From contig DATMBG010000037.1 of assembly GCA_035559535.1 (NCBI GenBank), forward strand, positions 196,475 to 237,264: 40,790 bases of DNA. The letters are read 5' to 3'. Below the pieces are notes generated by a model. That model was given only the letters and a program-made list of their open reading frames with translations, did not search any database and was not told the origin of the DNA. This stretch comes from Candidatus Limnocylindrales bacterium (lineage in GTDB: Bacteria > Moduliflexota > Moduliflexia > Moduliflexales > JAUQPW01). Below, piece after piece: positions 2,027 to 24,985 of this stretch. Made by a program: the position numbers and the translations under genes. Numbering within the stretch: position 1 is the first letter of the stretch; every line of letters begins with the position of its first letter.

Positions 2027-2100
2027 ACCACGAAAGACACGAAATGGACGCAAGGGGCCGACCTGTCTTTCGGTTTTCGTATCTTTCGTGTATTCGTGGT
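2027..2100. repeat. Imperfect inverted repeat ahead of the kinase gene
   Basis: ACCACGAAAGACACGAAA at 2027-2044 is answered by its near reverse complement TTTCGTGTATTCGTGGT at 2084-2100. The pair lies between the kinase remnant and the intact kinase. From memory, repeats of this ACGAAAGACACGAAA type are frequent between genes in some Verrucomicrobia; I could not check this here. It could also act as a terminator for the upstream remnant. It argues against the in-frame ATG at 2044 as the kinase start, because the first 22 codons would be repeat sequence. Confidence 0.55.
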
Positions 2101-2109
2101 GAGCCTCTC

Positions 2110-5100
2110 ATGAAAGCTAGAATCCTCCTGATCGAAGCCAACGAGCAGAACCGTTACCTCGCCACGTTCCTGTTGGAGAAGCACGGCTTCACCGTGGTCC
2201 ACGCGCCCGACGGCCCGGCTGGCATCGCGCGCGCCAGGCAGGAGCGGTTCGATCTCATCCTGCTCGACATTCAATTGCCCGATATGGACGGCTATGAGGT
2301 TGCGCGCGCGTTGCGCGCCGAGCCGGCGCTGGCCGGAGTGCCGATTGTCGCCGTGACCTCCTACGCGATGGTCGGCGATCGCGAGAAGGCGTTGGACTCG
2401 GGTTGCACCGGCTACCTGGAGAAACCCATCAACCCGGACACGTTCGTCGCGGAAGTCTGCCGCCATCTGCGACCGCCCGGTGGAGAAAGCGAGGAAGCAA
2501 TCGTGCTCAAGGAATACAGCGAAACACTGGTCCGCAAACTGGAGGAGAAAGTCGCCGAACTCGAACAAGCCAACCGCGCGTTGCGCGAGAGCGAAGCGCG
2601 CTTCCGGGCGATTTTCGAGAGCGAACCGGAGTGCGTGAAGCTCCTGGCAGCCGATGGCTCGCTGCTCGCCATGAATCCCGCCGGATTGCAGATGCTCGAA
2701 GCTGATTCGTTCGAGCAGGTCGAGCGCCACTGCATGTATCCGCTTGTGGTGGAGGAACACCGCTCCGCCTTCCGTGAACTGACGGAGCGGGTGATGCGCG
2801 GGGAGTCCGATACGCTTGAATTCCAGATCGTCGGCCTCAAGGGTGGACGCCGCTGGTTGGAGACCCACGCCAGCCCGCTGACCGACGCGACCGGGAGAAT
2901 CGTGGCGGTGCTCGGCATCACACGCGATATCACCGAGCGCAAGCAGGCCGAAGCGGCGCTCCGCGAGAGTGAGGAGCGCTTTCGCCTGCTGGTGGACCAT
3001 GCGCCCGAGGCGGTGGTGCTGCTCGACGTGGAGACCGGCCGCTTCGTGCATAGCAATCCGGCTGCCGAAACGCTCTTCAAGCTGCCCGCCACCGAGCTGG
3101 CCCGGGTCGGCCCGGTCGAGCTCAGCCCGCCAGTCCAACCTGACGGCCAACCTTCTGAAACCAAAGCCCGTGCGCTCATTGCCGCCGCGCTTGCCGGCGA
3201 GAAACCCGTCTTCGAGTGGATGCACCGCGACGCCACCGGCCGCGACATCCCCTGTGAGGTACGGTTGCTGCGGATGGAACTAGGGGGGCGGACGATCGTG
3301 CGCGGCAGCGTGCTGGACATCTCGGAGCGTAAGGCTGCCGAGGCGCGCATCGGCCAGCTCAGCCGCACTTACGCGGTGCTGAGCGGTATCAACCAGGCCA
3401 TCGTCCGCGAAAAAGACCCACAGGCGTTGCTGACCAGCGCCTGCCGCATCGCCGTCGAAAAAGGCGGCTTTTGCCTGGCCTGGATCGGTTTGGCCGGGGC
3501 GGACGGGTGGTTGCGGGTCACGGCCCACGCGGGGGCAACGCCGGAGACGATCGAAGTGGTCCGTGCCTTTGTGGAAGGCCCGCAACCGGACTGCGCCTTC
3601 ACCTATCACGCGCTGCAGCAGGGCGAGCGGGCTGTGTGCCTGGACATCGCCAGGGACGAGCGGGCGCGCAACTGGCGTGACGCAGCACTGGCGCGCGGTT
3701 GCCGTGCGATGGCCTCCCTGCCGCTGCAGGTGGGGGACCGCACGGTAGGCACGTTCAACCTTTACGCGAGCGTGGCGGGCTTCTTCGACCAGGAAGAACT
3801 GCACCTGCTGGACGAGCTGGCGGCGGACATCGGGTTTGCCTTGGAGGCGCACGAGCGGGAACGCGAGCGGCAACGCGCCGAGCAGGCCTTGCGCGAACTC
3901 ATCCGTACGGTGGACGGCATCGTGTGGGAAGCCGATCCCGACACATTCCACTTCACCTTTGTCAGCTCGCACGCCGAGCGGTTGCTGGGCTACCCGGTGG
4001 AACGCTGGTTGAACGAGCCGGACTTTTGGGCTAGCCACCTGCACCCGGACGACCGTGAACGGGCCGTCAACTTCTGTGTTGCCGCCACCCGCGCCGGAAA
4101 GGACCATCAGCTCGAATACCGCATGCTGGCCGCGGATGGGCGCGTGGTGTGGCTGCGGGATCTGGTGACGGTAGTCGTCGAGGACGGCCGCCCGGTGAGG
4201 TTGCGCGGCATCATGGTGGACGTGACAGCGGCCAAGGAAACCGAGGCGGCCCTGCGCGCCAGCGAGGAACGGTTCCGCGAAATCGCCGAGACCATCGAGG
4301 AGGTTTTCTGGGTCACAAACCCGGAGAAAAACCGGATGCTTTACGTCAGCCCGGCCTACGAGCGCATCTGGGGTCGCAGCACGCAGAACCTGTATGCCTC
4401 CCCGCGCGACTGGCTGGAGGCCATCCATCCCGACGACCGCCCGCACGTGCTGGAAGCCGCCACCACCCGGCAGACCACAGGCGAGTATGACGTCGAATAC
4501 CGCATCGTCCGGCCCGACGGCCAGGTGCGCTGGATTCGGGACATGGCGTTTCCCGTGCGGGACGAGTCGGGTCGTGTGGTACGCATCGTGGGCGTGGCGC
4601 GGGACATCACCGATCGGCGGCTGGCCCAGGAGCGTTTCCGCCTCCTGATCGAGAATGCGCCGGACATGATCCACGTGATCGACAACCAGGGGTTGCTCTG
4701 TTTTCAAAGTCCTTCGGTGGAACAAATCCTCGGCTACACCGAGGAGGAACGGCTGGGCCGCAGCGTCTTTGATCTGGTGCATCCAGACGACTTGGCTGCT
4801 GTCCGGGCAGCGCTGGGGCAGGCCGTGGCTCAACCTGGCCAGTCCGTGAGGGTGGAATGCCGGTTGCGGCACAAGAACGGCCAGTGGCGGCTGCTCCAAG
4901 CGGTGGGCCGCAGCTTGCCGGAGCAGGCCGCCGAGGGGTTCATCGTGCTCAACTCGCGCGACGTGACCGACCAACGCCGGTTGGAGGAGCAGTTTCGCCA
5001 GTCGCAGAAGATGGAGGCGATCGGGCAGTTGGCCGGTGGCGTGGCGCATGATTTCAACAACGTCCTGACCACGATCATCATGCAGTCCGAGTTGCTGGAC

Positions 5101-6132
5101 ATGGACGAACAAGTGAGTCCGAAGATCAAAGACGGCCTGCGGCAGATTCGCGCCGCCGCCGGGCGGGCGGCGAATCTCACGCGGCAGTTGCTGCTGTTCA
5201 GCCGCCGCCAGGTGATGCAGCCACGCGACGTGGACCTGAATGAGGTCGTGACCAACCTGGCCAGGATGCTGCAGCGGATCATCGGCGAGGACGTGCGCTT
5301 ACAACTGCACCTGAACCCAATGCCGCTGTGGACACACGCGGACCCCGGCATGTTGGATCAGGTCTTGATGAACCTGGCCGTCAACGCCCGCGACGCCATG
5401 CCCGAGGGCGGTCAGTTGCGCATCGAGACGCTGACCAGAACCGTGGACGAAATGCTCGCCCGGCAGCACGGCGATATCTTACCCGGCGACTACGTGGGCT
5501 TGCGCGTGACCGATACCGGCTGCGGCATTGCGCCGGAACACCTGGCCCGCATTTTCGAGCCTTTCTTCACCACCAAAGAACCGGGCAAAGGCACGGGCCT
5601 GGGGCTGGCCACTGTGTTTGGAATCATAAAGCAGCACGGAGGCTGGATCGAGGTGGAAAGCCAGGTGGGACAGGGAACGACGTTTGAAGCGTATCTGCCC
5701 GCTCTGTCCAAGCCCGCCGCGGCTGCGGCGGTAGCCCGAGCGGTTGCCAGACCGCCGGGAGGCACGGAAACCATCCTGCTGGTCGAAGACGACGAGGCTG
5801 TGCGGCTGATGACGCGTGCGGTACTGGAACGGCACGGGTACCGGGTGATCGAAGCCCCGGACGGGCTGGCCGCCCTCGAACGCTGGGAACAACATCGCGC
5901 GGAGGTGGCGTTGCTGCTGACCGACATGGTGATGCCGCGCGGGATCAGTGGCCACGAGCTGGCCCGGCGGCTGCAGGCCGACCGGACCGATTTGAAGGTG
6001 CTTTATATGACAGGTTACAGCGTGGAACTCGCCGGCCGGAAATTGATACCGCAACCGGGCCAGAATTTTCTCCAAAAGCCTCTTCAAGCCGACGTGCTGC
6101 TGGCCGCCGTGCGGCGGTGCCTGGACGCGTGA
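2110..6132 (+). CDS. Giant hybrid sensor histidine kinase (REC-PASx2-GAF-PASx3-HisKA-HATPase-REC)
   Basis: This is a cytoplasmic, multi-input two-component kinase of 1340 residues. The start at 2110 gives MKARILLIEAN, the natural beginning of a receiver domain; the upstream ATG at 2044 lies in a repeat. Domains in order: DivK-like receiver (1-125; D53, T83, K105), PAS (about 160-277), PAS (278-412), GAF (413-577), PAS (595-710), PAS (716-837), PAS (840-955), HisKA with H980 in GGVAHDFNN, HATPase (NLAVNARDAMPEGG; DTGCGI; TGLGLATVFGI), and a C-terminal receiver (about 1220-1338; D1272). No transmembrane segment is seen, so it should sense soluble or redox signals. In the first receiver the second acidic-pocket residue is Ala (IEAN). 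GC content and codon use differ sharply from neighbouring genes, suggesting transfer. No partner regulator is adjacent. Confidence 0.93.
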   Translation: MKARILLIEANEQNRYLATFLLEKHGFTVVHAPDGPAGIARARQERFDLILLDIQLPDMDGYEVARALRAEPALAGVPIVAVTSYAMVGDREKALDSGCTGYLEKPINPDTFVAEVCRHLRPPGGESEEAIVLKEYSETLVRKLEEKVAELEQANRALRESEARFRAIFESEPECVKLLAADGSLLAMNPAGLQMLEADSFEQVERHCMYPLVVEEHRSAFRELTERVMRGESDTLEFQIVGLKGGRRWLETHASPLTDATGRIVAVLGITRDITERKQAEAALRESEERFRLLVDHAPEAVVLLDVETGRFVHSNPAAETLFKLPATELARVGPVELSPPVQPDGQPSETKARALIAAALAGEKPVFEWMHRDATGRDIPCEVRLLRMELGGRTIVRGSVLDISERKAAEARIGQLSRTYAVLSGINQAIVREKDPQALLTSACRIAVEKGGFCLAWIGLAGADGWLRVTAHAGATPETIEVVRAFVEGPQPDCAFTYHALQQGERAVCLDIARDERARNWRDAALARGCRAMASLPLQVGDRTVGTFNLYASVAGFFDQEELHLLDELAADIGFALEAHERERERQRAEQALRELIRTVDGIVWEADPDTFHFTFVSSHAERLLGYPVERWLNEPDFWASHLHPDDRERAVNFCVAATRAGKDHQLEYRMLAADGRVVWLRDLVTVVVEDGRPVRLRGIMVDVTAAKETEAALRASEERFREIAETIEEVFWVTNPEKNRMLYVSPAYERIWGRSTQNLYASPRDWLEAIHPDDRPHVLEAATTRQTTGEYDVEYRIVRPDGQVRWIRDMAFPVRDESGRVVRIVGVARDITDRRLAQERFRLLIENAPDMIHVIDNQGLLCFQSPSVEQILGYTEEERLGRSVFDLVHPDDLAAVRAALGQAVAQPGQSVRVECRLRHKNGQWRLLQAVGRSLPEQAAEGFIVLNSRDVTDQRRLEEQFRQSQKMEAIGQLAGGVAHDFNNVLTTIIMQSELLDMDEQVSPKIKDGLRQIRAAAGRAANLTRQLLLFSRRQVMQPRDVDLNEVVTNLARMLQRIIGEDVRLQLHLNPMPLWTHADPGMLDQVLMNLAVNARDAMPEGGQLRIETLTRTVDEMLARQHGDILPGDYVGLRVTDTGCGIAPEHLARIFEPFFTTKEPGKGTGLGLATVFGIIKQHGGWIEVESQVGQGTTFEAYLPALSKPAAAAAVARAVARPPGGTETILLVEDDEAVRLMTRAVLERHGYRVIEAPDGLAALERWEQHRAEVALLLTDMVMPRGISGHELARRLQADRTDLKVLYMTGYSVELAGRKLIPQPGQNFLQKPLQADVLLAAVRRCLDA

Positions 6133-8074: not shown

Positions 8075-9097
8075 ATGAGAGTAAGGATTTTCGCCGGGGT
8101 TCTTGGGACTACTATAGGTATAACGCTATTACCAACCAATCTTTTTGTTTTAGCCCAACAGGCTCCTATTCCCGTTGAATCTATCAAAGTGGATATGGCT
8201 CCGAAGGTAGATGGGGATGGGAGTGATGAGGTCTGGCAAAAAGCTAAAGAGGTTAAAATTCAAACAAAAGATGGTCCGGAGGCGAAGCTTAAATCGGTCT
8301 ATACAGACAAGGAAATATTTTTCTTGATTACCTGGCCAGACCAGACAGAATCCATTAATATGGATATGTGGGTTTTCAAAGATGGGGCCTGGTCCATTAA
8401 GCAGGAGCCTCGATATGGAGGAAGTCAATCCTGGGATGCGGATCAAGATCGTTTGGCCTTTCAATGGAATATTAAGGACTCTGTTACTGGATTTAATGAA
8501 AAAGGTTGCGTGGCTCTCTGCCATGTTGAAGAGAGGGAAGATCGCATGCACACTAACGGTCCCGGGCAATATACGGATATCTGGCAATGGAAGGCAGCTC
8601 ACTCCAATCCGTTGGGAAAGATCGACAATGGTCACCTGGACAATACGGTGGTCAGTAAAAAAGATCAGCCGGACGAGGAAAAACGTCTCTATGCCGCTCA
8701 TAAATGGGATGGGACCGGGGATGAGCCCTTTGTAAGAAATATCGAAAATAACGCCCCTAAATGGATGCCCAAAGGGGGGCCCAATAAGGAGCCTTTCTTG
8801 ATGAAAGGTAACGAAGTTCCCCTGGATCCCAGCGTTGTAAAGTCAGGGGATACTGTTCCGGGTTGGGTGATAGGACCCCTTCCCAAAGGCCGGGATGTCA
8901 TCAATGCTAAGGGGGTTTATAAAGAGGGTACCTGGACTTTAGAAATCGGTCGGGCCCTGGTGACCGAGAACAAAGATTTTGATATTCAGTTTGAAGATCT
9001 CAAAAAACCTTATTATTTTGGGATGGGTATTTGGGAGAATGACCGCTTGTTTGCTCATATGCGTGCAGATGGGCCGTATATGTTGACCTTTAAATAA
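8075..9097 (+). CDS. Exported ethylbenzene-dehydrogenase-like haem protein (EB_dh domain)
   Basis: This 340-residue protein has a signal peptide (about 1-28, ending VLAQQA). A single domain follows of the kind found in ethylbenzene dehydrogenase gamma subunits and related haem-binding proteins: a VDGxxDEVWQKA opening, YTDKEIFFLITWPDQT, the central DRLAFQWNI, and a GKGVYKxGTWTLEIGRAL-type segment near the C-terminus. Such domains bind haem in periplasmic electron carriers. It also contains C145-x3-C149-H150, a spaced variant of the c-type haem motif, in GCVALCHVEERE. Start choice is clear: AGGAGG lies about 8 nt upstream. It heads the respiratory cluster and is followed after 83 nt by the CydA-like oxidase gene, so it probably feeds or receives electrons from that complex. 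A related domain recurs in the last gene of the cluster. Confidence 0.8.
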   Translation: MRVRIFAGVLGTTIGITLLPTNLFVLAQQAPIPVESIKVDMAPKVDGDGSDEVWQKAKEVKIQTKDGPEAKLKSVYTDKEIFFLITWPDQTESINMDMWVFKDGAWSIKQEPRYGGSQSWDADQDRLAFQWNIKDSVTGFNEKGCVALCHVEEREDRMHTNGPGQYTDIWQWKAAHSNPLGKIDNGHLDNTVVSKKDQPDEEKRLYAAHKWDGTGDEPFVRNIENNAPKWMPKGGPNKEPFLMKGNEVPLDPSVVKSGDTVPGWVIGPLPKGRDVINAKGVYKEGTWTLEIGRALVTENKDFDIQFEDLKKPYYFGMGIWENDRLFAHMRADGPYMLTFK

Positions 9098-9180
9098 GGG
9101 TCCTGGAGGGAATTTGAGTGAAAAAATTTACAATAGAGAGTCTCGTTTTCTGCTGGAAAGCGTGAGTCTCCAATTGCTTT

Positions 9181-10977
9181 ATGAGGAAAATAAATCGTAA
9201 AGTTTTTTTCATCTTTTCTCTGCTTTTCTTTGTGATCCTGATAGGTTCGGCGTTTGCCCAACAACCTGCCGGTGATCAACCTGTGGAGTATCGGGCATTT
9301 CCGTATATAGGAAGCCGACAAATCATGTGGATTGCAGCACAATTACACCTGATGTTTGCAGCCTTTATTTTAGGTGTTCCTATTTTTGCAGTGATTGTGG
9401 AGTTTATCGGATTCTATGCCCGAGACCCCTTGCAAAAACTACGTTACGACAGACTGGCCAAAGAGTTTACCAAGCTTCTATTAATCGCGTTTTCTGCAAC
9501 GGCTATCTGGGGAGCCATCCTTACCTTCTTATTTATCACCCTTTATCCCAAGTTTTTTAATTACTTATCGAACATCTTCTCTCCCACCTTATGGATTTAT
9601 CCTTTTCTCTTTTTTGGAGAAACTTTCACCCTTTATCTTTATTGGTACGGCTGGGAGTGGTTACAGGGGGAGAAGAAAAAATTCCATTTGGCCTTAGGGG
9701 TACTTCTAAATCTCTTTGGGATTGCCGTCCTTTTTATTACCGATGCCTGGACGACCTTTATGATGAGTCCCAGTGGAGTGGATGAAAAAGGTAATCTGGT
9801 TAGCCTCTGGAAGGCGATTAACAATCCGTTGTGGATGCCTTTAAATATTCATCGGCTGATCGCCAATATCGTTTTTGGAGGTTCCATTGCGGCGGCCTAC
9901 GCGGCTTTTCGATTTTTATCTTCTAAAACCGAGGAAGAAAGAGCCCATTACGATTGGATGGGATATATTGGGAATTTTATAGCCATTCAAGCCTTTATTG
10001 TTCTTCCCTTTGCCGGGTATTGGTTTGGTCGAGAAATTTATGCCTTTGATCAACAACTGGGAATCACCATGATGGGGGGTTTTCTGTCCTGGCTCTGGAT
10101 TATTCAGGCGATCCTTATCGGAATTATTTTCCTGGCAAGTAATTACTATTTGTGGATCGGTATGGAGCGGATCCCAGGGGCCGAAAGATATCGACTGTAT
10201 ACCCGGCTTATTTTGTTGGTTTTAGTTGTTGGTACACTGGTTTGGGCAACTCCCCATAGCCTGGTGGCCAGTCTGGAAGAAGCGAGAAAAATGGGTGGCG
10301 CTCACCATCCTCTTTTGGGAGTTCTGGGGGTTATGTCCGCTAAAAATACCGCGGTCAATATCATGATTCTGAGTACTTTTCTTAGTTTTTTGTTCTATCG
10401 GCGGGGCAATAAAATCTCCAGGGTTTCCTGGGCTAAGACCGGTGTGGTTCTTCAAGGGCTTATTCTCTTCCTGGCGGCTTTTATTGTAGTCTTTTACGGA
10501 GTTCGTGGTTACTTTGTAGAAGCCATCGTGCGAATTGGATATTCGGTTTATCAGGTTTTAGCCGTATTGAGCGCTATTATCCTGACCATGATCCTGGATA
10601 TCTTTATGCTCCGTAATGCAGAAGAGATCGGACCCATTCGGTGGGGAAAAATGCCACCCCGTTCTCAATACGCGCTTTTCCTCGTTGCCATTACATTTAC
10701 CTGGCTTATGGGACTCATGGGATATGCCCGGTCGGCCATTCGACAACACTGGCACGTTTATGGAGTTATGCGTGATACTTCCCCCGAAGCTTTCTCCCCG
10801 ACATTGGGCTTTGCAGCCGATATGGTTTCCATTTGTGTTCTTCTGTTTTTTGCCCTCGTCTTCTTTATCTTCTGGATTGGTCATCTTGGAGAAAAAACAA
10901 AGATCCTTGAGGAACAGGTTGAGGAGGAAGTAGAAGGAATAACCACTGCCAAGCTGAAAGGGGGTTATACAACATGA
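9181..10977 (+). CDS. CydA-like (bd-type-like) terminal oxidase subunit I
   Basis: This 598-residue polytopic membrane protein belongs to the cytochrome bd oxidase subunit I superfamily. Family signs are RQIMWIAAQLHLMFAAFIL with H56 (equivalent of the CydA haem ligand H19), LFFGETFTLYLYWYGWEW with the conserved Glu, LFITDAWTTFMMSPSG, NIHRLIANIVFGG with H224 (equivalent of H186), and a region near 515-530 reading YARSAIRQHWHVYGVMRD where canonical CydA has ExGRQPW. The first 26 residues look like a cleavable signal or an extra membrane helix. It is longer than CydA and has no long quinol-binding Q-loop. No cydB is present; instead the next genes encode c-type cytochromes, the first overlapping by ATGA. 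This arrangement recalls the bd-like oxidases of Nitrospira. I infer a cytochrome-c-linked oxidase rather than a quinol oxidase. The ribosome binding site is weak, so the exact start is uncertain. Confidence 0.85.
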   Translation: MRKINRKVFFIFSLLFFVILIGSAFAQQPAGDQPVEYRAFPYIGSRQIMWIAAQLHLMFAAFILGVPIFAVIVEFIGFYARDPLQKLRYDRLAKEFTKLLLIAFSATAIWGAILTFLFITLYPKFFNYLSNIFSPTLWIYPFLFFGETFTLYLYWYGWEWLQGEKKKFHLALGVLLNLFGIAVLFITDAWTTFMMSPSGVDEKGNLVSLWKAINNPLWMPLNIHRLIANIVFGGSIAAAYAAFRFLSSKTEEERAHYDWMGYIGNFIAIQAFIVLPFAGYWFGREIYAFDQQLGITMMGGFLSWLWIIQAILIGIIFLASNYYLWIGMERIPGAERYRLYTRLILLVLVVGTLVWATPHSLVASLEEARKMGGAHHPLLGVLGVMSAKNTAVNIMILSTFLSFLFYRRGNKISRVSWAKTGVVLQGLILFLAAFIVVFYGVRGYFVEAIVRIGYSVYQVLAVLSAIILTMILDIFMLRNAEEIGPIRWGKMPPRSQYALFLVAITFTWLMGLMGYARSAIRQHWHVYGVMRDTSPEAFSPTLGFAADMVSICVLLFFALVFFIFWIGHLGEKTKILEEQVEEEVEGITTAKLKGGYTT

Positions 10978-11981
10978 ATGGATCCAATCAATTTATCGGG
11001 CTTAAAGTTGTTTTGTTTACGCTGATTGTTATAGGTATTTTTACCTATTATGCCAATAGTATTCCGCAACTGGAGTCAAGACCTCCCAAGGAGCTTTCTC
11101 TAAGTAAAGAGAACCTCACTCCAGAAGCTCTGGTTCAGGCTGGTAAAGATATTTTTTATGGAAAAGGAACATGCGCACTTTGCCATGCCATCGGCGAAAA
11201 AGGACCCCGAGCTCCTGATTTAGCAGGAGTAGGAGCCAGAGCCGCCACACGTGAGCCGGGAAAATCCGCTAAGGAATACTTGATAGAATCTCTTATTAAT
11301 CCCACCGCCTATGTGGTGGAAGGGTATCCTCCCATTATGCCTGCGGTTAATAAACCTCCCATTTCTTTAAATCCAACGGAGATTTTAGCCGTTGTAGCAT
11401 TCCTCGAAAGTCTGGGGGGGACGGTCGATGTTAAACCCTCGGATATCCCTTCTGAAGCCTCTGCTACCGCCGCTTCTGCGACTCCTGCAGCACCTGCTCC
11501 CTTGAAACTCCCAGGAAATCCTGAAGCCGGAAAGGCCGTAGCAGAAGTGTGTGTTCAGTGCCATATTATCCCAGGTGTCGGTAAACCCAGAAGACCCAGG
11601 GCTCCAGATCTTTCAGCCATTGGAGCTATTGCTACACCCGATTATATTATGGAATCCATTCTGGATCCCGATGCAAAGGTAGTAGCCGGATATCCTGCCG
11701 GATTAATGCCTAAAGATTTTGGGGAGAAACTGAAAGCCCAAGAATTTATGGATCTGGTGGCTTTTCTTATGACCTTAAAAGGAGGATCGCCGGAGAGTGG
11801 TGAACCGGGTAAAGGAGCTCAACCTGCTGAAGGTCAAAAGAAGGAAGGGGTCCAGGAGACAAAGGCTTCTTCCGTACCGGTCCCCGAAGCTAAACCGGCA
11901 GAAACCGAGAAGAAGGAAGGAACCGAATCCCAGGGTAGCAAAAGCCCAACCGCAGGTTCTGAACAGAATAAATCTCAGTAG
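10974..11981 (+). CDS. Membrane-anchored dihaem cytochrome c
   Basis: The start overlaps the stop of the oxidase gene (ATGA), indicating translational coupling. The 335-residue product has an N-terminal membrane anchor (about 10-27) and two c-type cytochrome domains. Haem motif C67ALCH71 is followed by GPRAPDLAGVG and an axial-ligand candidate in PPIMPA. Haem motif C193VQCH197 is followed by RAPDLSAIG and a candidate in AGLMPKDF. The two domains look like duplicates joined by an Ala/Pro linker (about 158-178). The last 60 residues form a charged Glu/Lys/Pro/Ser tail without obvious structure. It probably serves as the electron-donating subunit of the bd-like oxidase. Confidence 0.85.
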   Translation: MNGSNQFIGLKVVLFTLIVIGIFTYYANSIPQLESRPPKELSLSKENLTPEALVQAGKDIFYGKGTCALCHAIGEKGPRAPDLAGVGARAATREPGKSAKEYLIESLINPTAYVVEGYPPIMPAVNKPPISLNPTEILAVVAFLESLGGTVDVKPSDIPSEASATAASATPAAPAPLKLPGNPEAGKAVAEVCVQCHIIPGVGKPRRPRAPDLSAIGAIATPDYIMESILDPDAKVVAGYPAGLMPKDFGEKLKAQEFMDLVAFLMTLKGGSPESGEPGKGAQPAEGQKKEGVQETKASSVPVPEAKPAETEKKEGTESQGSKSPTAGSEQNKSQ

Positions 11982-12013
11982 GGTCATACCTATTTGTAAT
12001 TAAACGAGTAGCA

Positions 12014-12137
12014 TGTCATTGCGAGCCCTTCGATACCTGCAGGTAAATTCCGCGAAGCCATCCCTTGACTTCAAGGGATGGCTTTGTCCCCTTTGCTTTA
12101 CCCTGAGCTTCGGCTCATATCGCCCCTTGCAATGACA
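12014..12137. repeat. TGTCATTGC...GCAATGACA interspersed repeat with internal hairpin
   Basis: Nine-base terminal inverted repeats, TGTCATTGC (12014-12022) and GCAATGACA (12129-12137), enclose a perfect 13-bp hairpin with a 2-nt loop (12056-12083). From memory, this resembles a class of extragenic repeats seen in many environmental genomes with TGTCATTGCGAG ends. It separates two cytochrome genes and may act as a partial terminator. Confidence 0.65.
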
Positions 12138-12182
12138 AACTCTTACTCCATTTGAAAGAGCCTTAACGATGAGTTATCAGGA

Positions 12183-12247
12183 TAAAACGTAAAACATAAG
12201 ACCTGAAGGCCTCCAGAGGCGCTTTGTGTTTTATGTCTTCCGTTTTA
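12183..12247. repeat. Imperfect inverted repeat with TAAAACG ends
   Basis: A TAAAACGTAAAACATAAGAC arm faces a GTGTTTTATGTCTTCCGTTTTA arm. It lies just before the cytochrome start at 12252, leaving no room for a normal ribosome binding site upstream of that gene. Confidence 0.5.
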
Positions 12248-12251
12248 ATAT

Positions 12252-12995
12252 ATGTCTATTCTGAAAAGCTCTTTTATACATGCCATTCTACTCCTTGTTA
12301 TCGCTATTCTTATTTTTAAATACGGGATTCACCCTCCCATTCCCCAAAGCTTATTTTTGCTTTACCTGGTTATTACCCTTTTCGGAATTTTCCTCTTTGT
12401 TTCTTCCAGTGAGGAGACCTGGAAAAGCTTCCTGAGTCCCATCCATGCAACGCTTTATGATCCCAGGTTTAGGGGAATTCGAGCGATTATCTTTATCATC
12501 CTTCCCATACTGGCAACTTACCTGGTTTACCTGAGAGTTCAACCAAAAATAGAACCTCCGGCAGAACTACGAACCATTCACCCGGCCCCTCCGGATACCA
12601 TTAGTTTTCGTAATGGAACCATTAAGCTTCAAGGGTTAGGAAATCCCTTGAGGGGCGATAAAGAGCATTTCCAGGAGCACGTAAATAGAGGCAAGGCCAT
12701 TTATTTTAAAAATTGTTTCTACTGCCATGGAGATGGGTTAAACGGAGAAGGCCATTTTGCCGAGGGACTTAATCCGAAGCCTGCAAATTTTACCGATGTG
12801 GGGACCATTGCACAGCTTCAAGAATCTTATCTTTTTTGGAGAATCGCCAAGGGTGGACCCAATCTTCCAACAGAAGCAACTCCCTGGAATTCTGCGATGC
12901 CAGCCTGGGAAAACTATCTCACAGCGGACGACATCTGGTCCGTTATTCTTTATTTATATGAAGCCACCGGTTATCAGCCCAGGAAGTGGGAGTAA
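12252..12995 (+). CDS. Membrane monohaem cytochrome c with three N-terminal helices
   Basis: This 247-residue protein has three predicted membrane helices (about 10-26, 33-50 and 77-96). A periplasmic cytochrome c domain follows, with motif C155FYCH159 in NCFYCHGDGLNGEGHFA, and a likely axial methionine in SAMPAWENYL. The pattern resembles small membrane cytochromes that act as redox subunits of oxidase or dehydrogenase complexes. It belongs to the same cluster as the bd-like oxidase and the two other cytochromes, but is separated from the upstream gene by repeats. No good ribosome binding site is visible before the ATG. Confidence 0.8.
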   Translation: MSILKSSFIHAILLLVIAILIFKYGIHPPIPQSLFLLYLVITLFGIFLFVSSSEETWKSFLSPIHATLYDPRFRGIRAIIFIILPILATYLVYLRVQPKIEPPAELRTIHPAPPDTISFRNGTIKLQGLGNPLRGDKEHFQEHVNRGKAIYFKNCFYCHGDGLNGEGHFAEGLNPKPANFTDVGTIAQLQESYLFWRIAKGGPNLPTEATPWNSAMPAWENYLTADDIWSVILYLYEATGYQPRKWE

Positions 12996-13007
12996 GGCCA
13001 ATAACAT

Positions 13008-13098
13008 AACCCAGGAGTCAGAAGTCAGGAGTCAGAAGTCAGAAGCAGTTTTAGTTTTTGACCTCTGGCTCCTGGCTTCTGTTACGTTTTACGGGACT
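13008..13098. repeat. CAGGAGTCAGAAGTC-type foldback repeat
   Basis: Direct AGGAGTCAGAAGTC units are followed by their approximate complement (CTCTGGCTCCTGGCTTCTG) across a T-rich loop. It fills the spacer between two cytochrome genes and has no coding sense. Confidence 0.55.
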
Positions 13099-13100
13099 AA

Positions 13101-14678
13101 ATGAAAAAGACACTTAACTTCTACGGTTGGATTTCTGTGGTACTCCTGATTTTTTTTCTCAATCTAAACTTTGTTCATGCCGGAGAAGCGCAACCTCCCG
13201 AAAAAAACCTCGAAGTAGGTAAAGCCCTCTATCAAAAAAATTGTGCCCAATGTCACGGGGATAATGGAGAGGGAAAGGGAGTATCAGAACCCTTCGTATT
13301 TCCAAAACCTCGAGATTTTACAGCAGGTCTTTACAAGATCCGAACCACCCCCGGTGGGCAACTTCCTTTAGATTCAGATCTGTTCCGAACCATCAGCTTC
13401 GGGATGCCGGGATCTTCCATGCCGGCCTGGCAACAACTGAGCGAAGCGGACCGCTGGCAATTGGTTCACTATATTAAAACTTTTTCTCCTAAATTTGCTT
13501 CGGAAACCGCAGAGAAAGTGGCCACAACGCCGAAACCTGCCAAACCTGATCTCGAGAAAGGACGGCAGCTCTTTCAGGATATAGAATGCTGGAAATGCCA
13601 TGGACAGGAAGGGCGAGGTGATGGTCCTTCGGCCCCGGAACTTAAGGATAACTGGGGATTCCCTATAAAACCTGCCGATCTGACAAAAAACTGGACTTTC
13701 CGAGGGGGTGGTTCGGTGGAAGATATCTATATGCGAATCATAACAGGGATCAATGGAACTCCCATGCCTTCCTTTTTGGATTCCTTTGAAAAACCAGAAG
13801 ATGCCTGGGATCTGGCCTATTATGTAAGATCTTTATCCCCTGAAAATAAACCCGAAGTTACTGTGCTCAGGGCAAAGCTTATCCCGGGTGAACTACCCAC
13901 AGAACCTGAAGACCCACGATGGAATGAGCTACCTGCTTACTACTTTCCACTTTCCGGCCAGATTACTATAGAACCCCGATTATTCACGCCTTCCCTTGAT
14001 TCTATCTTCGTAAAGGCTGTACATAATACTAAGGAAATTGCTTTCCTGGTTATGTGGAATGATAGAACCCAAGATCCTTCCCCTCCGGGTGCTATCCCAC
14101 AAACTGCATCGGCAGAAGGTCAACAAAGTCAATCTGCTTCTCAACAAGGTAACCCTTCAGCCCCTCAACCAGGAAGTCCCCAAAAATTCAGCGATGCCAT
14201 TGCTATCCAATTCCCTGTCAAGCCAGATCCCGGCGGTTTCATAAAGCCATACTTTATTATGGGCGATTCAGAAAGACCGGTCTATTTATGGACATGGAAA
14301 GCCGAATGGCAGGGTGTTAAGGAATCCAATGCCAGTGGCCCATTCAAAGAAACCCTACAAAGTCAGGAAAGCCAGACCCTTCAAGGTAAAGGTATCTATA
14401 AAAACGGTCAATGGAAGGTCCTTTTTAAGCGAGCTTTAACCACCCAGGATAAAGACCATGACTACCAATTTGAAATTGGAAAGTTTATCCCCATCGCTTT
14501 TTCTGCCTGGGACGGCTCCAATGGAGAAACCGAACTGAAAAGATCCCTCTCAACCTGGTATTATCTGTTCCTGGAAACACCCCGGCCCATTAGCCAGTAC
14601 CTTTATCCCATCACAGCCTTTCTACTTATAGCCGGAGCGGAAGTCTGGTTCTTGAAACGAAACAGCCGAAGGCAGTAA
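13101..14678 (+). CDS. Dihaem cytochrome c fused to an ethylbenzene-dehydrogenase-like haem domain, membrane anchored
   Basis: This 525-residue exported protein joins three redox modules. After a signal peptide (about 1-27) come two cytochrome c domains: C48AQCH52 with SSMPAWQQL supplying a likely axial Met, and C163WKCH167 with GTPMPSFLD supplying a second. Residues about 255-490 form an EB_dh domain (FVKAVHNTKEIAFLVMWND, DAIAIQFPVK, VYLWTWKAEW, GKGIYKNGQWKVLFKRAL), interrupted by a Gln/Ser/Pro-rich insert near 325-350. A C-terminal helix (about 497-517) followed by KRNSRRQ anchors it. The fusion resembles an electron conduit between a b-type and several c-type haems. It closes the cluster that starts at 8075, whose first gene carries the same EB_dh domain alone. 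Confidence 0.82.
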   Translation: MKKTLNFYGWISVVLLIFFLNLNFVHAGEAQPPEKNLEVGKALYQKNCAQCHGDNGEGKGVSEPFVFPKPRDFTAGLYKIRTTPGGQLPLDSDLFRTISFGMPGSSMPAWQQLSEADRWQLVHYIKTFSPKFASETAEKVATTPKPAKPDLEKGRQLFQDIECWKCHGQEGRGDGPSAPELKDNWGFPIKPADLTKNWTFRGGGSVEDIYMRIITGINGTPMPSFLDSFEKPEDAWDLAYYVRSLSPENKPEVTVLRAKLIPGELPTEPEDPRWNELPAYYFPLSGQITIEPRLFTPSLDSIFVKAVHNTKEIAFLVMWNDRTQDPSPPGAIPQTASAEGQQSQSASQQGNPSAPQPGSPQKFSDAIAIQFPVKPDPGGFIKPYFIMGDSERPVYLWTWKAEWQGVKESNASGPFKETLQSQESQTLQGKGIYKNGQWKVLFKRALTTQDKDHDYQFEIGKFIPIAFSAWDGSNGETELKRSLSTWYYLFLETPRPISQYLYPITAFLLIAGAEVWFLKRNSRRQ

Positions 14679-17782: not shown

Positions 17783-18664
17783 TTACGTTACATATAAAAA
17801 CCTGGCAATCTGCACGGCAGGAATCCACAGAGCTAGAACCAGTAAACCCAGGAGGAAGCCGGCAAATCCGGCTGTAAAGTAGGCGTCGAGTAGAATAATA
17901 GAGAGGACGAGGGTTTTAACGGCCGTTTTAATGTTGTCAGGGGTTGCTTCCAGCAGAACCCCTACTAACGGTCGAAGGGTTACGACAGTAAAGAGGATTA
18001 AGAAGATAAGAGGCGTAAAACCGGTCAGAATCCCTTTTAACCATATGTAAAAGCAACCCAGGATAACCAGTATAACCCCTATGGTAGCCAGTTGTTGCCC
18101 TCGCTGCTCTCCCCCTATTACCTCTCCCTTGCTGAGCGTCGTTATGGAGATGACATAGAGCATAACCAGGAAAGCAATGGTAATTTTAGAGGAAATTTGC
18201 CCGGGAATTATACTCATTCCTAATAAAACATTTAGAAAACGACAGCTACCCATATTAAGAGAGCCTAAAATCGGAATGTTTTTGGTAATCCCATCATAGG
18301 AGAGAATAGCACCCGTCAGAAGCACTGCAAAAACAAAACTTTGGATTCCTACAAATCCTGCAGAAAGAATCCCCAGGAGGATGGAGCCAATACCTATAAC
18401 CACAGCCGTACGAAGGCTGATTTGTCCAGAAGGAAGAGGGCGTTGGGGACGCTCTTTCAAGTCTACTTCGTAATCGAAACAGTCATTGAAGACAATTCCT
18501 GCCGTATAAAGAAAAGAGCTTGAAAGAAGGAGAAAGATCAGGTATTTGATCTGTCCTGGATGGAACTGTGTCGCTGCGAAGTATCCGGCAAAGATATCCG
18601 CCATAGCAGTGAAAACATTGGGGATCCGCATGAGTTGAAGATAAGGTTTCACAGTCTTTAACAT
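17783..18664 (-). CDS. eboC: EboC-like UbiA-family prenyltransferase
   Basis: This 293-residue polytopic protein of the UbiA superfamily has eight to nine helices. The first Asp-rich motif is NDCFDYEVDLKERPQRPLPSG, the classical NDxxDxxxD followed by RPxPSG. The second region is weaker: LSYDGITKNIPILGSLNMG, with a single Asp. The first motif supports binding of a prenyl diphosphate through Mg2+. In ebo clusters this gene is EboC and is thought to act on a lipid or small aromatic precursor. A GGAAAC element precedes the ATG. It is followed by eboF after 68 nt. Confidence 0.85.
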   Translation of the reverse strand: MLKTVKPYLQLMRIPNVFTAMADIFAGYFAATQFHPGQIKYLIFLLLSSSFLYTAGIVFNDCFDYEVDLKERPQRPLPSGQISLRTAVVIGIGSILLGILSAGFVGIQSFVFAVLLTGAILSYDGITKNIPILGSLNMGSCRFLNVLLGMSIIPGQISSKITIAFLVMLYVISITTLSKGEVIGGEQRGQQLATIGVILVILGCFYIWLKGILTGFTPLIFLILFTVVTLRPLVGVLLEATPDNIKTAVKTLVLSIILLDAYFTAGFAGFLLGLLVLALWIPAVQIARFLYVT

Positions 18665-18762
18665 AAAGTTTCCAAAACCCTGGTATCCTCTGTAGTTAAA
18701 AAACGAGAAAATACCAGGAAGGTGCCCAGGACATCAAAAAGATTTTTCAAGAACCTCTCAGA

Positions 18763-20091
18763 CTAGCTTCTGCAACGGAAACCCTTTTCTTCCAGAACCC
18801 TCCGAACATACTCTAATTCGTTTGCTATATTTGTACTAAGATCGCCAGTGCCTGTACCTGCTTTATGGGCGATCTGCTCGACCCACGTATAGGTTTCGAT
18901 AATGAGGGGAACTTCTTCCCCAAGGATTTTGGAGGAAGGGTTATCCCCAGGGTCTGGGAGAAAAATAAACTCCCTTAGAAAGTTTTTAAGTTCTTGAATA
19001 GTGGTCTGAATACCGGCCTGAGGGTTTTCAAATACGGGTACATGATAGTGGGTTCTCAGTTGTGTGACCCCTCGTCGAGCGAGTTCATTCTTTCCCTCTG
19101 GAGTAAAAAGATAAGGCAAATCCAGAGAAAAAATAACCGGTTTCCTTTCTGCATTAATACCTACCACCTGATGCAAAAACCTGGAGTTCATAAAGTATTT
19201 TTCAATGACCTCCATGTCTTCGACCTTCTTTAAGGGGTTATCAACTTGAATGGCATTGGAGACTTGTACCTTAAAAATTTTAATCCTGGATTGTTGAAGA
19301 AACTGAACAGATTGGATTAAATCCTCATATTGCACCAGTTGATGGCAGGTATCGAAGGTAACTCCCAGGAATTGGTGGATCACATTCTTAGCTTCTTCGA
19401 GACGTTTGGAATCCTTGGAGAAATCAGGTTCCTGGTTCGATCTTTGTCCGGCCAGAAATTCAGCTCCAACCCGATCCACGTAGTTTGTGAAAAACTCCCT
19501 GACTTCCGGTATGCGTTCATAGGTCAGGCCCGGTTCCGGTTCCATTCCGATTGCACATCGTTTTCCAGTTTTACGCTCTGTTTCATACGCGTGTAAAACA
19601 CACCGGGTCATATTGACGGCTATTTGGGAATGGATCTGATCTTTGTTGGTTTCTGTGAGATAGGTTTTGAGAATACCCCCGGGAACACTAAGAGAAACAA
19701 AGGTTTCATCTTCCGGAGCCAGAAAGGCTAAAATGTCGATACATGCCTTGGTAAAGGTGACCCGTTCTTCCCCCTCATGCCAGTTGGGCAGGTAAACCCT
19801 TTCCTTGACGTAACCTTCATGAAAAGTTAAAGGAACAAAGGCGTTGAGGGTAATTAAAGCCAGATTGTGTTGGAAGAGAAAATCTCGAAGTTCCTTTAAA
19901 ATTCGGTCACTACCGGCCAGTTCGTCTACGATTTTCTGGGATAACCTCAATTCGATATAAAATTTATCGTCTCCGAAAACCCTTTTCTTAATTTCCGGAA
20001 CTTTATTTTTGAGGACATCCCACATTCCATCTAGAGTTTCATAGGGAAAAGCATTCAGGGCATAGCCGAGTCGGCAGGTTCTTTGATGCAT
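18763..20091 (-). CDS. eboE: EboE-like metabolite traffic protein (xylose-isomerase-type TIM barrel)
   Basis: This 442-residue protein begins RLGYALNAFPYETLDGMW, typical of EboE. It contains barrel-like segments ending in acidic or His residues: AIGMEPEPGLTYERIPE (metal-binding Glu candidates), VTFDTCHQLVQYED (DxCH), KVQVSNAI and THYHVPVF. These fit a divalent-metal TIM barrel of the sugar phosphate isomerase/endonuclease IV kind. In the ebo literature EboE is needed for metabolite export, without a defined reaction. It lies between eboB and eboC here, whereas eboC-eboD-eboE is the usual order, and eboD is absent. No clear ribosome binding site precedes the ATG. Confidence 0.85.
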   Translation of the reverse strand: MHQRTCRLGYALNAFPYETLDGMWDVLKNKVPEIKKRVFGDDKFYIELRLSQKIVDELAGSDRILKELRDFLFQHNLALITLNAFVPLTFHEGYVKERVYLPNWHEGEERVTFTKACIDILAFLAPEDETFVSLSVPGGILKTYLTETNKDQIHSQIAVNMTRCVLHAYETERKTGKRCAIGMEPEPGLTYERIPEVREFFTNYVDRVGAEFLAGQRSNQEPDFSKDSKRLEEAKNVIHQFLGVTFDTCHQLVQYEDLIQSVQFLQQSRIKIFKVQVSNAIQVDNPLKKVEDMEVIEKYFMNSRFLHQVVGINAERKPVIFSLDLPYLFTPEGKNELARRGVTQLRTHYHVPVFENPQAGIQTTIQELKNFLREFIFLPDPGDNPSSKILGEEVPLIIETYTWVEQIAHKAGTGTGDLSTNIANELEYVRRVLEEKGFRCRS

Positions 20092-22074: not shown

Positions 22075-23403
22075 TTAGTGTTCGTGATCTCCATGCCCAT
22101 GCTGTCCGCCAGATTCTTTATGACTACTGTGCGTGCCGGGTTCCTGTTTTGAGGTCTCTTGAGAATCCAGAGTCATCAGGTAGGCTGTGATAGCCGTAGC
22201 TTCTTCGTTAGAGAGGCGAAACCCTGGATGTCGGGCACCTGGATGGGGTTTGTATCCGGTTGGATAAGTCTGGATAGCCGTAGGATTCAGCAGGTAGTGG
22301 GTTAACCAGCTTTCATCGGGAACAAATTCTCTGATTCCTAAAAGGGGAGGTCCATTGGGTACTATATCCGGTGGAAATCCTCCGATCCTATGGCATCCGG
22401 TGCAATTTAAATTACCTATAAGCATCCGACCTTTCTCTGCCGTCGCTTTAGGGAACCGGGCTTTTGCCAGACTATAGCCATCGGTGGCTTCAGGCCCTAA
22501 ACTGAAAATATAATCCCTAAGGGCTGCAATTTGTTTCCATCTATTCCCCTCCAGGATATTTTCCGGTCCGGACTTTTCCTCCGGGAAATAGGTCGGCATT
22601 TTAGTACCGGGTTGAATCTTTTGAGGATCCAAAAGCCAGCGAACAACCCAATCTGGGTTGAGACGTTGCCGGGCTAGGGAGAGGTCAGGCGCCCATTCCT
22701 CGGGGCGGCCTTCCGGCTTTTTATCACCCTGCGGGTGGCATTTGAAACAGGCTAGATACTCCGGGCCGGCTAAACGTGCTCCGGCTTCTATACTCTCCTC
22801 CGTTGGATAACCGTTAAACTTAAGTTCTTTAGGAAGTGGAGAAGCCTTGGGATCTTTAAGCGTCATAAGATACTCGGTAATTGCCAGGGCTTCCTCATCT
22901 GAAAGCCTGAAGTCCGGCATTCTTTGTTGAATACCCGGACGCAAAGGATAGGGTTGCTTGAGAAAGGAAAATAACCAGGAGGCCTGGACCTTATCACCTT
23001 CAAAATAAAGCTCAGGAAAGTTATGGATATGACCGGTATGCCCATGCCTTGCCTCTACGAGATGGCATCCGGCACAATGTAACTGATCCACCAACTCTTT
23101 ACCCCGGACCTGAAGATTTGTAAGACCCCGGGTTGAGCTGTGGGCCTGTTCTTCAGTCTTATGGGGATGCCCTTCGTGAAGTTCCCGGGAGGAAGTCATA
23201 GGTTGTGGCTCGGTGGGTATTTCCTGCAGATGCCCGACTTCACCTTGATGTTCTTGGTGGGAAGAGGTTGGTTGTTGCGGCTGAAGTGGTGATCCCTGTT
23301 GAGGGGGGGTAGAATGAGGATGTTCCTCATCGGCCAAAAGTAACGATAAAAATCCCCAAATGAAAAAAGAAATCCCCAGGAGAATAAAAGACATTCGTTT
23401 CAT
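22075..23403 (-). CDS. Exported tri-haem cytochrome c with His-rich ends
   Basis: This 442-residue protein has a signal peptide (about 1-24) and three c-type haem motifs: C110AGCH114, C219FKCH223 and C334TGCH338. Each is followed by a stretch with a likely axial Met (QQRMPDFRLSDEEA, GTKMPTYFPEE) or a related segment (GARHPGFRLSNEEA, where His stands in the Met position). Domains one and three are clearly related (FRLSxEEAxAITxYLMTL). Residues 27-90 and the last 25 are rich in His, Gln and Glu, possibly metal-binding. It follows the PQQ dehydrogenase and the binding protein on the same strand, so I infer that it accepts electrons from that enzyme. Confidence 0.82.
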   Translation of the reverse strand: MKRMSFILLGISFFIWGFLSLLLADEEHPHSTPPQQGSPLQPQQPTSSHQEHQGEVGHLQEIPTEPQPMTSSRELHEGHPHKTEEQAHSSTRGLTNLQVRGKELVDQLHCAGCHLVEARHGHTGHIHNFPELYFEGDKVQASWLFSFLKQPYPLRPGIQQRMPDFRLSDEEALAITEYLMTLKDPKASPLPKELKFNGYPTEESIEAGARLAGPEYLACFKCHPQGDKKPEGRPEEWAPDLSLARQRLNPDWVVRWLLDPQKIQPGTKMPTYFPEEKSGPENILEGNRWKQIAALRDYIFSLGPEATDGYSLAKARFPKATAEKGRMLIGNLNCTGCHRIGGFPPDIVPNGPPLLGIREFVPDESWLTHYLLNPTAIQTYPTGYKPHPGARHPGFRLSNEEATAITAYLMTLDSQETSKQEPGTHSSHKESGGQHGHGDHEH

Positions 23404-23549
23404 AGGATTTTCTTTCTCTTTTATATAAGATAAGGAACGATAACCTTAAAATTGCAAATCAAATCTGGAAATTCCCTATCTATCAGAATTTTTCGAATTA
23501 AATGGATGTTACGATGTATGTTATGTTAGGGTGGTACTTACCTGTGAAG

Positions 23550-23575
23550 GCAAACCTTTCTAAGGTTTGCTTTTT
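23550..23575 (+). terminator. Terminator-like hairpin with T-run on plus strand
   Basis: GCAAACCTT (23550-23558) pairs perfectly with AAGGTTTGC (23562-23570) over a 3-nt loop, followed by TTTTT. This is an ideal intrinsic terminator for a plus-strand transcript, yet both flanking genes are on the minus strand. It may act in reverse on the minus transcript, or end an unannotated plus-strand RNA. The rest of the 254-nt gap shows no gene. Confidence 0.55.
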
Positions 23576-23657
23576 AAATGGTAAGATTCACCACAGTTTT
23601 GACAAATTGGACTTGCGAAAGTTCCGATAAAATTTCTTTTGCAGTTCCCTGTATTTT

Positions 23658-24593
23658 TTACTTTGTTGGAGGGAAAGGAGGATAATAGGGAACCCCATAT
23701 TTGGCCATAATAGACTGAATCGTTCCGTTTTGGGTTAAAAGGGTCAGGGCTGCGTTGATAGCTTCTTCCAGATCTTTGTTAGTCTTATTCACACCCATCA
23801 CGACATTCCATCGAAGTTCTGGTTCTGGAACATAGCCTTCGGGAACTTTAATAGGCGCATCGGGATGTTGTTTAAGATACCAGCCGACTGCAGCGGCTGT
23901 GACGACTGCCGCTTGAATTTCCTTGTTGGCCATAGCCTCTATAATATCTTCTTGGGTCACATAAGGGGTTACGGTAAAACCCTTTTTATGGGTAAGGATA
24001 TAATGGGCCCACGAACCGGGTTCAATGCCTATCTTCAAATTTTTATCGAGGTCATCGATACTTTTTATCCCTTGAGCTTCTTTAGGAATCACCAATACAT
24101 TGCCGGTGCCATAGTAAGGCTTGCTTGTAAAGAAACGTCCCCGAGAGTTTTCTTCCTCATCTTCAGGTTGAATAACGCCCATCAAGAAGTCACATTCTGC
24201 GTAATCTCGAGGACGATAAGCCCGAAGATATTCGACTCTTATATTGATCCCCAGAATTTTCCCTACCTCCTTTCCAATCTCCAGTTCATAACCCGGCATG
24301 TCCAGATCCCGGCTGGAATAAGGTAAACTATTGGGACTCGCACAGAGATAAAAGGTTCGTTTCTGGCGGGTTTCTTTAGGGAGAGTTTCAGATTGAGAGG
24401 CAGGTAGCTGAGGTTGAGCCGGTTGAGCTTTTTCTACAACTTGAATGACCGGAGGATGAGGCAGCAGGAGTTCTTTAAAGGAGGAAGTTTCTATGGCACT
24501 TAAGAGCGAAGGGAACAAGGCCCAGGACAAAAAGCATCCTAAAAGGACACTCCCTATAGAAGGGAGTTTTTGCCTGATATCAGGGTATTGCAT
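23658..24593 (-). CDS. XoxJ/MxaJ-like periplasmic binding protein
   Basis: This 311-residue exported protein has a hydrophobic N-terminal segment (about 15-33), a Pro/Gln-rich linker, then a type 2 periplasmic binding fold: FYLCASPNSLPYSS, GYELEIGKEVGKILG, CDFLMGVIQPEDE, KPYYGTGNVLVIPKEA, KIGIEPGSWAHYIL and KTNKDLEEAINAAL. The CASPNSLPYS opening is typical of the binding proteins (MxaJ, XoxJ) encoded with PQQ alcohol dehydrogenases, which are thought to assist maturation or activation of the enzyme. It stands downstream of the PQQ dehydrogenase and upstream of the cytochrome, the same set as in xoxFJG clusters. No transporter genes are nearby, which also argues against nutrient uptake. Confidence 0.82.
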   Translation of the reverse strand: MQYPDIRQKLPSIGSVLLGCFLSWALFPSLLSAIETSSFKELLLPHPPVIQVVEKAQPAQPQLPASQSETLPKETRQKRTFYLCASPNSLPYSSRDLDMPGYELEIGKEVGKILGINIRVEYLRAYRPRDYAECDFLMGVIQPEDEEENSRGRFFTSKPYYGTGNVLVIPKEAQGIKSIDDLDKNLKIGIEPGSWAHYILTHKKGFTVTPYVTQEDIIEAMANKEIQAAVVTAAAVGWYLKQHPDAPIKVPEGYVPEPELRWNVVMGVNKTNKDLEEAINAALTLLTQNGTIQSIMAKYGVPYYPPFPPTK

Positions 24594-24985
24594 AATTTAA
24601 CTTTCGTTTATTCCTTATAAAGGCCATAGGGTAACTTCTCTGAGTTGCCCTTCTTATCCTGTTTCTTATACCAATTTTTGGTTGAAACTGACCCTTAACT
24701 TTCCTGTTCCCTCTAAGCTTGTTGAAGGAAGAAAAGGAGAGGAACAAGATCGTTTAGGGCATATTTCAGTTTGAAACTGGTATTACGTGAAGTCATGTTA
24801 ATTACACCCCGTTCGTCCGGAGCAGGTTGAAGGGCGCAGGGGGTACAGGGAGGGGTTTCCCTGGCGGACATTTCAAAACAGAAAGGATGTTAACTGCAAA
24901 ACCCCTCTTTGCCGTTTAAAAAAGAAGAGGGAATAGAGTATAGAACTCCACCCCCTTTTGAGGACTACCCGGGTTAGACGTTAAA
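24594..24985. other. Intergenic spacer with foldback repeat
   Basis: I see no gene in this 392-nt gap. An imperfect inverted repeat spans about 24669-24783 (TACCAATTTTTGG...GAAACTG answered by CAGTTTGAAACTGGTA). A terminator-like hairpin follows at 24903-24931. Confidence 0.45.
24903..24931 (-). terminator. Probable terminator after the PQQ dehydrogenase
   Basis: On the minus strand CCCTCTT pairs with AAGAGGG across a 15-nt loop, and TTTT follows soon after. It lies 55 nt beyond the PQQ dehydrogenase stop and could attenuate transcription into the binding protein gene. Confidence 0.4.

Follow-up and report, generated by a model that had tools for sequence, protein, structure and literature searches.

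A CydB-less bd-like membrane protein encoded with cytochromes c and an alternative-NxrC-type subunit in a cassette shared by many bacteria

Organization of the locus

The window, i.e. the whole 40,790-nucleotide stretch of DNA that was analysed, carries a row of five genes on the + strand (Table 1), and the ORF list together with the Pfam matches bore out the five haem-protein genes of the initial annotation. The stop codon of the CydA-like gene overlaps the start codon of the gene for c2 (ATGA), in agreement with the proposed coupling of the two genes. The three-helix monohaem cytochrome and the dihaem–EB_dh fusion described there were also recovered by Pfam, CxxCH motifs and hydrophobic helices: c1 has three hydrophobic helices, and c2EB has two cytochrome c stretches followed by an EB_dh domain (76.8 bits) and a C-terminal helix.

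Table 1. Genes and other features of the window
Feature	Position	Strand	Characteristics
Multi-PAS hybrid histidine kinase	2044..6132		65% G+C
Solo EB_dh-domain protein	8075..9097	+	340 aa, hydrophobic N-terminus, CX3CH (CVALCH) at aa 145, EB_dh 93.6 bits
CydA-like (bd-superfamily) membrane protein	9181..10977	+	598 aa, Cyt_bd_oxida_I 79.3 bits
c2, membrane-anchored dihaem cytochrome c	10974..11981	+	335 aa, two Cytochrom_C stretches, CxxCH at aa 67 and 193
c2–c1 spacer	11982..12251		270 bp, repeat-like DNA
c1, monohaem cytochrome c	12252..12995	+	247 aa, one cytochrome c stretch, CxxCH at aa 155
c1–c2EB spacer	12996..13100		105 bp, repeat-like DNA
c2EB, dihaem cytochrome c/EB_dh fusion, alternative-NxrC type	13101..14678	+	525 aa, CxxCH at aa 48 and 163
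Ebo-type cluster	17783..20091	-	EboC and EboE
PQQ-dependent alcohol dehydrogenase region	22075..26686	-	possible methanol/ethanol oxidation operon

In the spacers on either side of c1 there are short direct repeats as well as an inverted repeat; in many relatives the genes nearly abut at these places. Elsewhere in the window, the histidine kinase gene lies in a region of roughly 46% G+C, and the coordinates of a sister genome (G001) suggest about 6.5 kb less DNA there, so the kinase may be a recent insertion. EboC and EboE both scored above the NCBIfam cut-offs. Encoded with the alcohol dehydrogenase (TIGR03075 above cut-off) are a cytochrome c with three CxxCH motifs and a binding protein that weakly resembles MoxJ.

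The absence of cydB noted in the initial annotation holds for the whole genome (G000) in the following sense. The genome has two PF01654 matches and a single PF02322 match. The latter, cydB (C51:344851-345819), adjoins a canonical cydA (C51:343518-344789), and the CydA-like gene of the window is the other PF01654 match, with no cydB beside it. A cydB elsewhere in the genome with a co-evolving phylogeny was not found, the lone cydB following the different, canonical cydA. The sister genome likewise encodes one ortholog of the CydA-like protein (99%) and one canonical CydA. Each of the two genomes, which are about 96–97% complete, has only one OR-type CydA.

The CydA-like protein

The AlphaFold model of the CydA-like protein (pLDDT 88.1, pTM 0.86) aligned best with canonical structures (7ose_A, Z 33.5 over 352 residues; 6rx4_A, Z 33.1; 5doq_A, Z 32.9), followed by ActC of alternative complex III with Z about 20; this comparison rests on VIA-align, since Foldseek alone gave a poor global superposition. 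In place of the Q-loop the model has extra helices.

A family was assembled from the best 80 of at least 571 stretches encoding a relative. The query matched 111 ORFs, 93 of which were kept (>450 residues, identical stretches removed); the alignment with seven canonical CydA proteins, among them that of E. coli, comprised 94 family members. Two other alignments, A2 and A3, comprised 70 and 65 relatives. In a FastTree tree (100 sequences, 541 columns) the branch between the family (all 93 members in the tree; node support 0.705) and the seven canonical CydA proteins had a length of 3.28; clustering with quinol-oxidising CydA, which the initial annotation had named as the contrary outcome, was not seen. 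The window protein falls into a group of 87 members (0.789) together with sequences from Gemmatimonadota, Rokubacteria and SAR324, one Scalindua sequence and three sequences titled Nitrospinae or Nitrospinota (L098, L103 and L106; 53–55% identical); within this group, its placement next to any sequence from beyond its genus lacks support (0.057). The other group, of six sequences, contains paralogues, among them two from Scalindua.

In E. coli CydA, E445 is a ligand of haem b595 and E99 lies next to haem d (PMC6853902). Compared with canonical CydAB (E. coli, Geobacillus), the window protein shares the CydA fold and, as proposed in the initial annotation, the equivalents of H19 and H186 (H56 and H224, 94/94 members), but it has no adjacent CydB and no Q-loop. 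E99 is replaced by Tyr140 in all 94 members and E445 by Leu512 in 92, and in 89 members the stretch between residues 503 and 522 is free of acidic residues. M393 is mostly lost in the family (Leu in 55 of the 94 members, Met in only a few), and the equivalent of E107 is kept in 93/94. Tyr140 also pairs gap-free with Geobacillus E101 in a phmmer alignment, so this register is independent of any one alignment; the one-residue difference to E. coli is explained by the Leu101 insertion (PMC6853902). Alignment thus indicates that the H19-type haem site is kept and that both carboxylates beside the canonical O2-site haems are lost. The lost carboxylates and the invariant Tyr constitute the strongest reason to doubt that the protein works as an ordinary bd oxidase.

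Other positions are nearly invariant: M513, K388 and R225 (94/94 each) and M510 (93/94). The altered ExGRQPW motif described previously was found as IRQHW at residues 520–524, aligned with GRQPW of E. coli. Of the two histidines around which the initial annotation advised looking for haem or copper ligands, H525 is present in 94/94 and H523 in 76/94 members of the family alignment; H376 is present in 93/94.

The c2EB subunit and the solo EB_dh protein

The EB_dh domain of c2EB (model pLDDT 88.3) has the fold of EbdC, the gamma subunit of ethylbenzene dehydrogenase (Z 26.6, 201 residues), and of Kuenenia NxrC (Z 25.7, 212 residues). Unlike these two, it is part of a larger protein that also comprises two cytochrome c domains and a C-terminal helix; the dihaem part superimposes on Kuenenia 6h5l_B with Z 23.7. 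M387 aligns with a Met of EbdC and NxrC. In EbdC this Met is an axial haem b ligand; its equivalent is kept in 29/66 members.

Matches to the solo EB_dh protein were obtained in 9 of the 29 cassette genomes searched, some of them being weak or to the fused EB_dh domain. The gene was said to complete the cluster: it is present, but it adjoins the cassette nowhere outside the window's genus (L023 and L029 being the same sister genome). Its product carries a CX3CH motif, found in 6/7 aligned solo-type sequences including that of the window, and so may bind haem c instead of haem b. The idea that EB_dh domains serve as an additional entry for electrons is compatible with the fused subunit but is weakened by the aligned Met being retained in fewer than half of the members and by the solo protein being a local addition.

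Conservation and distribution of the cassette

The scan of genome contigs gave at least 589 pattern matches and, among these, at least 571 stretches encoding a relative. Among the best 80 of these, the order CydA-like, c2, c1, c2EB was complete in 71, cut by a contig end in 7 and incomplete in 2 (L095, L104). The same four-gene order in 71/80 named relatives argues that the arrangement is not due to chance. According to the record titles, the carriers belong to Gemmatimonadota, Rokubacteria/Methylomirabilota, Acidobacteriota, Bacteroidota, Nitrospinota, Planctomycetota (Scalindua), Myxococcota, Calditrichota, Fibrobacterota, Chloroflexota, SAR324 and others; all 80 loci are titled metagenome-assembled, and binning errors are possible. 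The cassette is common in many bacteria beyond nitrite oxidisers and anammox bacteria.

The anammox genome G062 (Candidatus Scalindua sediminis, L038) has three sets: one with a fused CydA-c2 followed by c1 and c2EB (L126), a second set in the usual order (L125), and a third in which a separate c1 gene was not recognised between c2 and c2EB (L124). At two other loci (L052, L063) two complete four-gene sets adjoin each other, their CydA-like paralogues coming from the two groups of the tree.

A search of the literature by title and listing did not find the cassette reported for Gemmatimonadota, Rokubacteria or Rhodothermales; Murali et al. 2021 may cover part of the distribution or of the ligand changes.

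Relation to published clusters

The resemblance to the bd-like proteins of Nitrospira was rightly seen in the initial annotation, and the four-gene set itself has been published before (PMC6606698). Nitrospina, Nitrospira and anammox bacteria are described as having a bd-like oxidase that has lost its quinol site, cytochromes c and an alternative NxrC (PMC3578206, PMC6606698, PMC8026999). The cassette matches this published cluster and is therefore of a known kind: it represents the "bd-like + alternative NxrC + two cytochromes c" type and not a new kind of complex.

The closest likeness, drawn from the published description, is to the bd-like_3/alt_NxrC_2 cluster of N. moscoviensis. As described, this cluster encodes a bd-like protein without CydB, two cytochromes c, one monohaem and one dihaem, and an alternative NxrC with a membrane helix and two haem motifs, in a genome with NXR (PMC6606698). 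Compared with the Nitrospira, Nitrospina and anammox clusters, the window adds the solo EB_dh gene with CX3CH and the repeat-containing spacers. A further difference is that the cassette lies beside NXR genes in Nitrospina, Kuenenia and N. defluvii, as far as these are described, whereas in the window's genome the two are about 140 kb apart on contig C37. The distance is a matter of location and not a property of the proteins, and the window has the four-gene core of the published type.

Related proteins have been reported elsewhere. Bd-like proteins are retained in two Nitrospinae that lack canonical haem-copper oxidases altogether (PMC8026999), and for Manganitrophaceae a bd-like complex named TO_1, which includes a periplasmic cytochrome b, has been reported (PMC9040806). 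Such bd-like proteins have been placed in OR-N, one of the families of the bd oxygen reductase superfamily of Murali et al. 2021 (PMC10839748, PMC12342949), where OR-N/OR-C members resemble the window protein in having a CydA-like protein without a quinol site and a proposed use of cytochrome c (PMC10839748). The bd-like CydA proteins of Nitrospinota were, with one exception, assigned to OR-N1/N2 (PMC10839748). A CydAA' pair (OR-N1 + OR-N2) has been put forward as a hypothesis (PMC10839748, PMC12342949); in contrast, the window's genome has one such paralogue.

Other redox genes of the cassette genomes

The NXR operon lies at G000:C37:61204-66511 (L183:9204-14511, - strand). NxrA scored 1813.8 bits against Kuenenia NXR-A (residues 19–1161 of 1163) and NxrB 601.7 bits against NXR-B (7b04); the operon also encodes a chaperone and a dihaem/EB_dh protein (gamma) 29% identical to c2EB. 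With a full NXR-type enzyme, the window's genome is a candidate nitrite oxidiser or nitrate reducer.

Dependence of the cassette on NXR was considered and rejected: a match to TIGR03479 was absent in 3 of 26 cassette genomes (G077, G078, G083), one of which (G078) is a single-chromosome assembly. The TIGR03479 threshold is loose and a match is no proof of NXR; the genome whose alpha and beta subunits were examined more closely is that of the window. Relatives without NXR do exist.

A haem-copper oxidase was found in 26/26 cassette genomes tested, and the window's genome has four COX1 matches, one of them about 25 kb upstream of the cassette. COX3-like genes occur in the examined flanks of 33 of the 80 loci (best 80 of at least 571). 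Together these findings indicate that an oxidase role of the cassette is not needed there. Replacement of complex III, considered because cassettes are often near aa3 oxidase genes, is not needed either, as 25/26 genomes have an NrfD/ActC-type protein and 16/26 a bc-type cytochrome b.

PCP_red and radical SAM genes linked to the cassette

The neighbours of the 80 cassettes (best 80 of at least 571) were grouped in single-linkage BLASTP clusters, which may include spurious ORFs and from which clusters without a Pfam name were left out; the named clusters were USP-PCP_red (53), radical SAM-PCP_red (47), cupredoxin-like (44), NUBPL ATPase (38), small PCP_red (37) and COX3 (33). Names were assigned by Pfam/NCBIfam on representatives, except that the cupredoxin-like cluster was labelled by eye, Pfam giving only carboxypeptidase-regulatory-like domains. 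At least one of the USP-PCP_red, radical SAM-PCP_red, cupredoxin-like, NUBPL and small PCP_red genes was present at 41 of the 43 loci with at least 19 kb of DNA, the exceptions being L029, of the window's genus, and L104.

PCP_red (PF08369) was found in 26/26 cassette genomes versus 1/14 controls. Among 59 relatives it scored above cut-off in 5 of the 6 with OR-type CydA versus 3 of the 53 without (Fisher p 6e-5, uncorrected for phylogeny); the one cassette genome of this set without a match was G034, which is 86% complete. A search of the literature by title and listing did not find a link of the cassette to a radical SAM gene. The radical SAM representative stayed below the curated cut-offs (NirJ2, 345 of 500 bits; AhbD, 312 of 500), and modification of a haem by its product is only a lead.

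In the window's genome the cupredoxin-like, USP-PCP_red, NUBPL, PCP_red and radical SAM-PCP_red genes do not lie at the cassette, so they may serve other complexes. They are in a row with genes for a Rieske protein, a split cytochrome b and an octahaem cytochrome c on contig C51 (G000:C51:238104-250305, L181). This row resembles the neighbourhood of the bd-like cassettes of other organisms.

Discussion

The interpretation that we prefer, and to which we give an even chance, is that the products of the four genes at 9181-14678 form one membrane complex, which would be fed by periplasmic cytochromes via the NxrC-like subunit and would reduce an acceptor, most likely O2. We infer that electrons from a periplasmic donor (here plausibly NXR, or a soluble cytochrome c) would enter c2EB, pass through the membrane-anchored mono- and dihaem cytochromes to the haems at the H56 and H224 sites of the CydB-less core, and there reduce the acceptor, without use of quinol. 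The core would be a monomer or homodimer rather than a CydAA' pair because the genome has only one such paralogue, and the solo EB_dh protein may act as an optional extra electron carrier. O2 would be a plausible acceptor.

The initial annotation had spoken of a cytochrome-c-driven oxidase. The CydB-less bd-type protein, which is no canonical quinol oxidase, the multi-cytochrome cassette and the EbdC/NxrC-like fold of the EB_dh domain speak for this claim; its oxidase part is weakened by the loss of the O2-site carboxylates, the haem-copper oxidase in every cassette genome tested and the three sets in the anammox genome. The latter observations, together with the COX3-like genes near 33 of the best 80 (of at least 571) cassettes, favour a different possibility, which we consider less probable: a wiring complex without O2 reduction, whose NxrC-like subunit would be the docking place for NXR or other donors in the periplasm, and which would hand electrons on to an aa3 oxidase nearby or, when run in reverse, to the quinone pool. 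It would be comparable to proposals made for Nitrospira and Nitrospina, where an NXR anchor or a complex III-like role was suggested (PMC3578206, PMC6606698). However, no quinol site was recognised in the CydA-like protein, the NrfD/ActC-type proteins and bc-type cytochromes b make a complex III role superfluous, and 3/26 carriers have no DMSO-reductase-type alpha subunit at all.

It is improbable that the cassette encodes a bd-type scavenger of NO or O2 with a protective rather than a respiratory role. Handling of NO and O2 stress is known for bd oxidases (PMC10839748), and the cassette is present in an anammox genome, but the joint conservation of four cytochrome subunits points to an electron supply of their own, and alt_NxrC_2 and its cluster are described as being among the most strongly transcribed genes of N. 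moscoviensis under nitrite oxidation (PMC6606698). Least credible is an ordinary quinol oxidase sharing a CydB encoded elsewhere, a reading already disfavoured: a cydB does exist and both CydA proteins belong to one Pfam family, but this cydB stands directly behind its own canonical cydA, a long branch separates the two kinds of CydA, E99, E445 and M393 are replaced, and extra helices take the place of the Q-loop. We consider it unlikely, though worth stating, that the complex is a cytochrome c-fed O2 (or NO) reductase of bd fold with a rebuilt site that jointly uses a redox Tyr, a second haem held by Met (M510 or M513) in place of Glu and a haem modified by a radical SAM enzyme. The invariant Tyr, standing for Glu beside the O2-binding haem, could have a redox role as in haem-copper oxidases, and the modifier would be the NirJ/AhbD-like radical SAM protein with PCP_red, which accompanies the cassette in numerous phyla, the majority of which are not known for nitrite oxidation.

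As a rule the bd-like/alternative-NxrC complex is treated in the context of nitrite oxidation, and its presence in genomes without an NXR-type enzyme shows that its respiratory role is wider. What is new here are the replacements of E99 by Tyr and of E445 by Leu throughout or nearly throughout the family, the relatives without NXR and the co-occurrence with PCP_red and radical SAM genes; the residue pattern and the linked genes are concrete things to test. If the preferred interpretation, cytochrome c-driven reduction of O2, is true, the complex would be a cytochrome c oxidase that works without copper and has an active site of an unfamiliar kind. If O2 is not reduced, the bd-like genes of nitrifiers and anammox bacteria should no longer be taken for terminal oxidase genes.
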